Shown here: piece by piece, positions 29,677 to 32,164 of the stretch
Numbering within the stretch: position 1 is the first letter of the stretch
Layout: each line of letters starts with the position of its first letter
Assembly (NCBI GenBank): GCA_028577615.1
Contig: JAJSDU010000027.1
Coordinates: forward strand, 1-39,565
Origin: Nitrosomonas sp.
GTDB lineage: Bacteria; Pseudomonadota; Gammaproteobacteria; Burkholderiales; Nitrosomonadaceae
Direction: 5' to 3'
DNA: 39,565 bases
Translations under genes and position numbers: made by a program
The notes under the pieces: model-generated
The model's database searches: none
The model's input: only the letters and a program-made list of their open reading frames with translations
What the model was told of the DNA's origin: nothing

Positions 29677-30042
29677 TCAGTTCCCATCAGCACCGGATAA
29701 CGCAGTGTCGTTTTCACCGAGCACTTTTCCTGTAGAAATCGGAAAATGATAATATGTCGCATTCAAGTAACCGGCTACGTCATCAATATCACTACTGCTC
29801 CATTCCAGTGATAAATTCTTTTGCCACCGGTTCACCTGCTCGAGCAAAACGGGCCAGCTCGTTGCAAGCTTCTTCTCCCGCCAGTGCACTTCGGTATCAT
29901 GACACGAAACGCAATGCAGGGAATATAGCAATTGACCGCGATCTGCGCTGTACTCCATCTGCTCTGCCAATACATAGACCGGAATAAAAATTGCGCACCA
30001 GAATAGCAGAACTGCCGCAAGACCTTTCTTTGAAACAAACAT
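29677..30042 (-). CDS. Monohaem c-type cytochrome in the bufferin operon
   Basis: A 121-aa exported cytochrome with signal peptide (cleavage near VLA-EQ, residue 26) and one haem site, HCVSCHD (C44, C47, H48). No methionine occurs after the haem motif, so the sixth ligand is not the usual Met. H53 and H99 (YYHFP) are candidates. The DIDDVAGYLNATYY helix is the usual C-terminal cytochrome c helix. It is the last gene after bufA-bufB-bufC, 82 nt from bufC, and was probably co-transcribed to serve redox chemistry in the periplasm. Confidence 0.82.
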   Translation of the reverse strand: MFVSKKGLAAVLLFWCAIFIPVYVLAEQMEYSADRGQLLYSLHCVSCHDTEVHWREKKLATSWPVLLEQVNRWQKNLSLEWSSSDIDDVAGYLNATYYHFPISTGKVLGENDTALSGADGN

Positions 30043-30124
30043 TCATTCTCCTTTCATGGTTCGTTTATAGAATTAAATAACACCGGCATTTCTTTAGCAT
30101 GTTGTTTCGGAAGCAGAAGCAAGA

Positions 30125-30928
30125 TCAGGGACGCACACCAAGTAAAATGCCCTTCTCCAGAAAGCCGGCCAGAATTGCGTAGCCTGCTTCGATCACGATA
30201 TCTGGACGGGGATGATTAAGTTCTGACGCGATCTGCTCCAAAAGCGCCTTGCCATTTTTAGAATCATGATTTGTATTGTTACTGATAATCAGCTGAAGCA
30301 ATCGAGCAGTCACCTGATTGGCCTCCATAAAGTGAATTTCATCCCTGCTGTCGCGATATACGATCAGATAAGTGATCTGGTTACCAGACATTTTTGGTTG
30401 ATAATCCGCGCTGATCTTATGCACCGGAAAATGATAACCAAACACCCAAGCCAAGGGGGACGCGACCGGAATGCCGGTCAGCAAATCGTCTCCATTACCC
30501 GGAAGGAAAAACACTTTGCCATCTGTTTTTTCATCCAGTATCGATAACGCTAGTTCCACCCATTCGTAGTGCGCCAATTCCAGCATGAAAGGCGGATCAT
30601 CCGGCTCGGTCTCACGTTCATGCTCGAGATATTTCAGAAACTCCCGTGGCATTTCCGGAAACAGCGGCGTATGCGATTGATGCTTCGCATAATAGTCACG
30701 AATCATGGCATGCCAACGCTGATCAGGAATGATACTGCGCAATACCGGATAGGTGCTCGCCATGAAACTTTCAACATTGTTGTAGAACAATTCACGATAG
30801 ATTTTCATGCGACGAGCATCAATATCTTCGGGAGACGAATTATTCTCAGGATCGCGGATATGCGCGGTAAATGCATATTGCAAACGCACAAAATCCGGAC
30901 GTTCAGGCGTGTTGTAAGTTGTGCTCAT
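30125..30928 (-). CDS. bufC: BufC-like partner protein (DUF2063/HvfC family)
   Basis: A 267-aa protein of the DUF2063 family, which forms a complex with DUF692 MNIO enzymes and helps present the precursor peptide. The N-terminal DUF2063 domain is clear ([57 protein letters not shown]), followed by a C-terminal recognition-type domain ([30 protein letters not shown]). Its ATG lies inside the end of bufB, overlapping by 26 nt, so the enzyme and partner are translated together. The product is cytoplasmic. Confidence 0.85.
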
Positions 30929-31775
30929 CGACCAGCAGCAGCGGCTGCCGCCAGTTGGATTGGATATGTTGAATGCGCTTTACTTCCAGTTCAAGATCGC
31001 AGAAAGCCGGGATATTGAAATCGCGCTCCAGCAACGTAGGAATGACGCCAAATTGCTGATACGCTTTTTCAAGTAATGCCCAGACCGGAGCGATAACATC
31101 AGCGCCATGCGTATCGACTATCAAATCTTCTGCTTCATTGTAATGTCCTGCAATATGGATGTAACGAATACGCTCGCCAGGTATTTGCCGCAGAAATGCT
31201 TCTGCATCGTAGCCGTGATTGACGCTATTCACATAAACATTGTTTACATCGAGTAGCAAATCGCAATCTGCCTGCTCAAGAACAGTGTTCAGAAAATCAA
31301 TTTCCTCCATTTCCTTGCCTGGCGCAGCGTAGTAGGAAACATTTTCCACTGCAATACGCTGTTCAAGAAAATCCTGCACACACTTGATACGGTTGACCAC
31401 ATATCGCATGGCTTCTTCGGTAAATGGAATGGGCAGCAAATCATAGAGGTGGCCGTCATCGCTGCAATAACTTAAATGCTCGCTATAGCAGCGTATTTGA
31501 TGTATTTTCAGAAATTGTTTGAGACGATGCAGAAAAGCCTCATCCAGTGGTGATGGGCCACCTATGGATAGCGACAAACCATGACAGATAAATGGATGCC
31601 GTTCAGTCAACGCGCGCAGCTTCTTGCCATAAAAACCGCCCACCCCGATCCAGTTCTCCGGTGCAATCTCCCAGAAATCAACGATATCAGCGGGCTGATC
31701 AGCCACTTCGCGCATTAGTGCGCGCCGCAGCCCCAGCCCGGCACCATGAACAGGATAATTAACAGCGGTGTTCAT
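30903..31775 (-). CDS. bufB: BufB-like MNIO iron enzyme (DUF692)
   Basis: A 290-aa TIM-barrel multinuclear non-haem iron oxidative enzyme that modifies cysteines of the BufA precursor. Conserved metal-site segments include [90 protein letters not shown] and LLERDFNIP. The ATG at 31775 is preferred over an in-frame TTG at 31796. It lies 29 nt after bufA. In characterised bufferin and methanobactin-type systems such enzymes turn Cys into oxazolone- or thiooxazole-type groups. The exact product here is inferred. Confidence 0.9.
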
Positions 31776-31804
31776 GCTCTGATAGCAAACGAGCAACCTG
31801 TGCT

Positions 31805-32164
31805 TTATTTACTGCTGCCACACTTTCCTTCGCCACATTTGCCTTCTTTCTCGGCTTTTTCGCCACCACACTTTCCTTCCATATTTTTTTTCATATCGCT
31901 ACCACATTTGCCTTCACCACACTTGCCTTCTTTCTTGGCTTTTTCACCGCCGCATTTACCCTCAGCATCGTACTTGCCCGCACCTTCCTTATCTTTAGCT
32001 TTACTTTCTCCTCCACCATAAGCCAGCTGCATATATCCGCCGGATAATTCATTGACAGCAAACGGATTTACACCAGCCTCTGCAGAAGCATTGCTGGCCG
32101 CAAGGGTTGTGACAAATGCGGCACCAACCGCGAGCGAAACAGGTTTAATCAGTTTTTTTGACAT
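31805..32164 (-). CDS. bufA: BufA-like bufferin precursor with six EGKCG motifs
   Basis: A 119-aa precursor, probably a copper-binding RiPP exported to the periplasm. It has a signal peptide (residues 1-28, ASNASA-EA) and the [16 protein letters not shown] segment typical of the family. A core then carries all six cysteines in EGKCG motifs. The core is a doubled unit, residues 68-89 and 96-117, each [22 protein letters not shown]. Processing by BufB/BufC would modify these cysteines. The ATG at 32164 is chosen over upstream starts because the family signal peptide begins MSKK and GGAG lies 6 nt before it. The gene heads the operon bufA-bufB-bufC-cytochrome. Confidence 0.88.
31814..31963 (-). 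repeat. Two-copy tandem repeat inside bufA
   Basis: Two 66-bp units (31898-31963 and 31814-31879), separated by 18 bp, encode the doubled cysteine array of the precursor. The proteins differ at one residue (Lys versus Glu) while the DNA differs at many third positions. The duplication is therefore old and kept by selection on the peptide. Confidence 0.75.

Follow-up and report, generated by a model that had tools for sequence, protein, structure and literature searches.

MNIO-type peptide maturases act together with partner proteins on cysteine-bearing RiPP precursors, and the sources cited here describe several systems related to the locus that is the subject of this report. In the HvfABC system of Haemophilus influenzae, HvfBC contains a mixed-valent diiron cofactor and needs both O2 and a reductant, with which it is active in vitro; the four-electron oxidation of cysteine is balanced by the reduction of O2 to water and takes place before secretion, residues D242, H244, and N175 of HvfB are required for activity, and the product, oxazolin, has six modified cysteines, which form six 5-thiooxazoles (PMC13419390). 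FonA of Fontimonas thermophila carries seven modification sites (PMC13097082), and within the EGKCG family at large the number of repeats is variable, with up to 58 cysteines (PMC12452194). In S. meliloti, a DUF692/DUF2063 pair belongs to the RpoE7 regulon, and the sole cytochrome c-like entry in that source belongs to another regulon (PMC6180224).

Here we describe a locus of this kind in a Nitrosomonas genome (family Nitrosomonadaceae), contained in a 39,565-nt stretch of DNA (contig JAJSDU010000027.1) that was analyzed as a whole and is referred to below as the window. We regard it, with a probability of about 0.87, as a standard HvfABC-type operon, behind which lies a cytochrome gene that is an independent neighbor and dispensable for making or using the peptide. 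An ORF check confirmed four genes between positions 29677 and 32164, all on the minus strand and in the order precursor–MNIO–DUF2063–cytochrome, and the first-pass annotation was borne out in its reading of an MNIO-RiPP operon with the order precursor–MNIO–DUF2063, a kind that is linked to copper in other species. The features are as follows:

31805-32164, minus strand: hvfA-like RiPP precursor, 119 aa, with a putative Sec-type signal peptide (read by eye) and six EGKCG motifs
31817-31963, minus strand: precursor core, a three-motif block present twice, with motifs at residues 68, 79, 84, 96, 107, and 112
30903-31775, minus strand: hvfB, MNIO-type peptide maturase, 290 aa from ATG
30125-30928, minus strand: hvfC, DUF2063 partner protein, starting 26 nt inside the end of hvfB
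29677-30042, minus strand: small exported monohaem c-type cytochrome (CVSCH), 121 aa, a neighbor gene
32390-32416, minus strand: conserved 27-nt element upstream of hvfA, a candidate operator or promoter part

The likely start of hvfB is the ATG at 31775, as against a possible TTG at 31796, and the ATG agrees with a 290-aa relative in locus L002. Purifying selection acts on all four genes in the one genome pair that was compared, with dN/dS values of 0.08 for hvfA, 0.07 for hvfB, 0.18 for hvfC, and 0.22 for the cytochrome. The HvfABC-type operon is common in the family: MNIO genes are present in 97 of 125 Nitrosomonadaceae genomes, hvfA, hvfB, and hvfC stand together in 30 of the 30 top-scoring MNIO loci (L022–L051), and a search of the window's own genome, which is 90.5% complete, returned a single MNIO.

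The assignment of the operon rests on equivalog and family models (NCBIfam, Pfam) and on searches against solved structures, those for the hvfB product having been run with the 297-aa frame from the TTG. In that frame, the enzyme passes the HvfB family model NF003818 (441.8 bits, cut-off 360) and stays below the BufB model NF050167 (276.6 bits, cut-off 310), and it contains the MNIO domain PF05114 (E 7e-107, 357 bits); its closest solved structure is 3bww (E 3e-73), with which its VDTHG and DVNN stretches align, and the residues of these stretches plausibly correspond to D242, H244, and N175 of HvfB. The partner passes the HvfC model NF050145 (303.5 bits, cut-off 142), contains DUF2063 (PF09836, E 2e-27) together with an NGO1945_C domain (PF22106), and has a solved relative in 3dee (E 3e-7). 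The precursor passes the KCGExKCG_twice model NF050137 (40.9 bits, cut-off 19.5) and scores below the HvfA equivalog NF050188 (23.9 bits, cut-off 95), and is therefore an EGKCG precursor rather than a strict HvfA equivalog; no Pfam family, DUF2282 included, matched it at an E value of 1 or better, and no PF10048 (DUF2282) match was found in the 90.5%-complete genome.

With DUF2282 absent, the BufB model failed, and the HvfB and HvfC models passed, the locus falls with the EGKCG/oxazolin-type HvfABC systems and not with the DUF2282 bufferins, so that the bufABC identity proposed in the first-pass annotation does not hold. The gene order is the same in a true DUF2282-type bufferin operon and the proteins are homologous, as the BufB score itself reflects, but with an enzyme that misses this model while passing that of HvfB, and with DUF2282 lacking from the precursor and unrecovered from the genome, such an identity is very improbable. 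The looser use of "bufferin" is partly a matter of naming, since one survey labels the group Buf_EGKCG/oxazolin (PMC12452194); judged by its sequence, the locus would be a captophorin in the naming of 2026 (PMC13097082).

The precursor contains exactly six EGKCG motifs and no further cysteine, and its N-terminus, read by eye, shows positive residues, a hydrophobic stretch, and an ASA cleavage-like site. The two three-motif halves of its core agree in 54 of 66 nt, and the duplication that the first-pass annotation had noticed is thus real. The unusual status that it gave to a duplicated six-cysteine core did not survive comparison: oxazolin likewise has six, the GKCG count runs from 1 to 7 in the 18 precursors recognized at 22 loci of the family (none being recognized in the other four, L069, L083, L086, and L087), and at class level a small GKCG-bearing ORF lies near the MNIO gene in 24 of 60 loci, with KCG counts of 1 to 14 when any same-strand GKCG-bearing ORF under 260 aa is counted by rule. 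Four Nitrosomonas loci (L072, L075, L076, and L084) have precursors with two GKCG only and additional, Cys-less repeat-like stretches, and their hvfB and hvfC are still full-length ORFs. In four loci from two other genera of the family (L080, L081, L082, and L085), one or two GKCG precede sequence that looks EF-hand-like by eye, and these precursors resemble the second type described in PMC12452194.

Upstream of the operon we found a 27-nt element, GAAGBRCTGAGTKTAWCAGAGNGBNGC, that is present, always as a single copy, in 22 of 85 Nitrosomonas genomes and not at all in the reverse-read control. All 22 copies are on the MNIO strand, upstream and some 450-670 nt from the MNIO match, and 16 of the 22 contain a CTGA-N5-TCAG dyad; the element is a candidate operator, or promoter part, for hvfA or for the divergent gene. 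Read as an RNA fold, it gives six pairs, one of them with changes on both sides in a single sequence, which is little support. A promoter scan of the region returned 5 sites against 5.4 in shuffles, and an Rfam search of positions 29600-32700 gave one microRNA match at chance level (E 0.61). The divergent gene beside hvfA is an ORF of 242 aa on the plus strand (32603-33331), with murJ beyond it; its product has a hydrophobic N-terminal stretch and no Pfam family over cut-off, and a member of its cluster lies near hvfB in 11 of the 22 family loci examined.

The product of the last gene has a single CxxCH and a hydrophobic N-terminus, and most of its length can be matched to a family of cytochromes, although its score of 17.9 bits falls short of the 21.3 bits set for Pfam Cytochrom_C. 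Its own sequence has no Met after the CxxCH, and in the alignment of 43 relatives no column after the motif has Met in at least 8 of them, which makes a standard Met-ligated carrier unlikely; position 53 is His in 37 of the 43 and Tyr in 6, and the haem may be His-ligated or high-spin. The structure predicted from two sequences had a mean pLDDT of 48.8, too low for use, and the cytochrome profile gave weak haem-motif matches only against solved structures. A relative at 80% identity, the sole one returned by the contig search, is from the Nitrosomonas sp. SJ634 MAG. In the tree, the window's cytochrome pairs with the SJ634 protein (support 100/100) on a long stem branch of 0.73, and the pair is nested within 17 rows (100/99), 16 of them from Nitrosomonadaceae and one, L091, from another family, a placement that fits relocation of the cytochrome inside the family. 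Between the two linked genomes the cytochrome has a dS of 0.41, and at the dN/dS of 0.22 given above it looks like a working gene. The cytochrome matches of G074, G056, G080, and G057 have an in-frame stop within the match or at its edge, and some of these relatives may be decaying copies.

The cytochrome starts 82 nt after hvfC and is preceded by an AAGGAG ribosome-binding site, and as neither a terminator-like nor a promoter-like match was seen in between, co-transcription with hvfC is plausible. The survey of co-occurrence proposed along with the first-pass annotation nevertheless revealed no repeated adjacency in independent lineages. The cytochrome family is present in 18 of the 125 Nitrosomonadaceae genomes, and 14 genomes have both it and an MNIO match, where independence would predict 14.0 (Fisher p = 1). 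It adjoins the MNIO operon in two genomes, that of the window and a Nitrosomonas MAG, which are closely related to each other and also have the genes flanking the operon in common, so that conservation of the linkage counts for little as evidence. In a further 12 genomes that have both, the two lie on different contigs or about 635 and 727 kb apart (G074 and G095), and the remaining 83 of the 97 MNIO genomes have no match to the cytochrome family; conversely, four genomes (G010, G011, G080, and G120, the last 74% complete) have the cytochrome without any MNIO match. Many of these genomes are drafts, in which separate contigs alone are no proof of distance, but the cytochrome regions that were fetched show other neighbors: DEAD-box helicase, SDR, and BCCT genes (L052 and L053), a LigB dioxygenase (L055 and L057), a P-type ATPase (L066), and a hypCABDF set (e.g., L062), the neighbor families having been scanned in one example each and extended to the others by clustering. 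In one genus of the family, a small cytochrome lies close upstream of the hyp gene set (L056, L058, L060, L062, and L065, the families of the set being scanned in L062 only).

At the level of the class, the cytochrome profile matched in 149 of 370 genomes and MNIO in 220, and both were found in 108 against 88.6 expected (Fisher p 4e-5, kinship ignored), an excess that counts against strict independence yet comes without linkage. Adjacency at this level was judged by eye from the match positions listed and, further, from 60 class loci hand-picked among the MNIO matches listed. In a survey of all ORFs at these loci, MNIO was found in 60 of 60 and the cytochrome profile matched near it in one: a related cytochrome lies near the MNIO gene (within about 4 kb) in L159, on the opposite strand and at a locus without a GKCG precursor, and L159 had been picked since both queries matched its contig, so that the sample favors finding a link. 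Further CxxCH ORFs, inspected in four of these loci (L171, L158, L130, and L121), do not look cytochrome-like. The cytochrome as a conserved part of the operon was accordingly rejected, on 2 of 125 family genomes and 1 of 60 class loci. PMC12452194 and PMC13097082 make no use of the word "cytochrome" in their main texts, and Nitrosomonas is not named among the MNIO-literature matches listed, from a search that left subscription journals mostly aside.

Two further roles for the cytochrome have to be weighed against its being an independent neighbor. It might have been recruited as a lineage-specific part of the operon, acting on the redox state of peptide-bound copper or linking copper and the respiratory chain by electron transfer. 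The shared strand, the short gap with its ribosome-binding site and its lack of a terminator-like match, the fact that both genomes keep the gene linked and under purifying selection at the cytochrome dS noted above, the long stem of the pair, which is compatible with changed constraint, and the class-level co-occurrence above expectation all speak for such recruitment, as does the precedent of methanobactin operons that include the di-haem cytochrome c peroxidase MbnH (PMC3621798). MbnH, however, is a different protein, and the adjacency is confined to two genomes that share the flanking genes as well, whereas in 95 of the 97 MNIO genomes of the family the cytochrome is missing or located elsewhere. 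We therefore consider recruitment improbable, and marginally less probable still its more specific form, in which one Nitrosomonas sub-lineage captured a non-Met-ligated exported cytochrome that works with the thiooxazole peptide, for example by setting Cu(I)/Cu(II).

Haem attachment in c-type cytochromes takes place outside the cytoplasm, which places HvfB and the cytochrome in different compartments. A part for the cytochrome in the chemistry of maturation or export, as an electron source or sink for HvfB, is suggested by its position directly behind hvfC; with the compartments distinct, with no adjacent cytochrome of this family in 95 of 97 MNIO genomes of the family, and with HvfBC running on O2 and a reductant in a reaction that is O2-balanced before secretion (PMC13419390), such a part was rejected on compartment and chemistry, its likelihood being next to nil. 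The coupling of maturation or export to redox chemistry that the first-pass annotation had proposed is unlikely on the same grounds, the modification in the relative being complete in its electron balance before secretion and the c-type cytochrome being exported; respiratory coupling is likewise unlikely, given this O2 balance and the absence of a conserved Met haem ligand. Relatives from Haemophilus and Fontimonas are reported to reach full modification in a heterologous host without such a cytochrome (PMC13419390 and PMC13097082), and nothing in the HvfBC chemistry requires a periplasmic haem protein.

The reading that we prefer is thus a standard HvfABC-type operon with an independent cytochrome gene beside it, independence being most likely in view of the distribution of the two. 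By analogy with the described systems, HvfC would present the precursor to HvfB, a presumed diiron enzyme that, with O2, would turn each EGKCG cysteine into a 5-thiooxazole in the cytoplasm; the modified peptide would then be exported by Sec with loss of its signal peptide, and in the periplasm it would bind most likely copper. In one sub-lineage, a member of an independent and widespread family of small cytochromes has probably ended up downstream of hvfC, where it may be co-transcribed with the operon. Both peculiarities claimed for the locus are ordinary or local, while the observation itself is correct; the cytochrome link carries little weight, and proof of its local occurrence averts a false functional inference. 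Ammonia oxidation depends on copper, and a copper-peptide system in the Nitrosomonas family is therefore worth testing. If the capture of the cytochrome were true, a haem redox partner might set the Cu(I)/Cu(II) state in a bacterium with a copper-dependent ammonia monooxygenase.

Among known systems, HvfABC/oxazolin of nontypeable H. influenzae shares with the present locus the HvfB and HvfC families and an EGKCG precursor, which is Sec-exported there and putatively so here (PMC13419390 and PMC12452194); the six modified cysteines there are paralleled by six EGKCG motifs here, known from sequence, whereas the precursor here falls under the NF050188 cut-off and has a cytochrome gene as a neighbor of its operon. 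Fontiphorin (FonABC) and the captophorins have in common with it the EGKCG repeats and an MNIO enzyme with a DUF2063 partner (PME1), FonA differing in its seven sites as against six EGKCG (PMC13097082). The Buf_EGKCG/oxazolin type-1 precursors of Antoine et al. 2025, mostly from Pseudomonadota, likewise vary in EGKCG number, but most of the BGCs described there combine RiPP, MNIO, DUF2063, and DoxX genes (PMC12452194), whereas no DoxX gene adjoins the operon here and one is located on another contig of the genome. The DUF2282 bufferins (BufABC) are alike in core order, homologous enzymes, and presumed copper role, and differ in the precursor family and in the BufB equivalog model, which is not reached here. 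The methanobactin operons with MbnH, finally, also join an MNIO-RiPP system to a nearby haem protein gene, but MbnH, which is paired with MbnP, is a peroxidase of the di-haem kind (PMC3621798), whereas the protein described here has 121 aa and one CxxCH.
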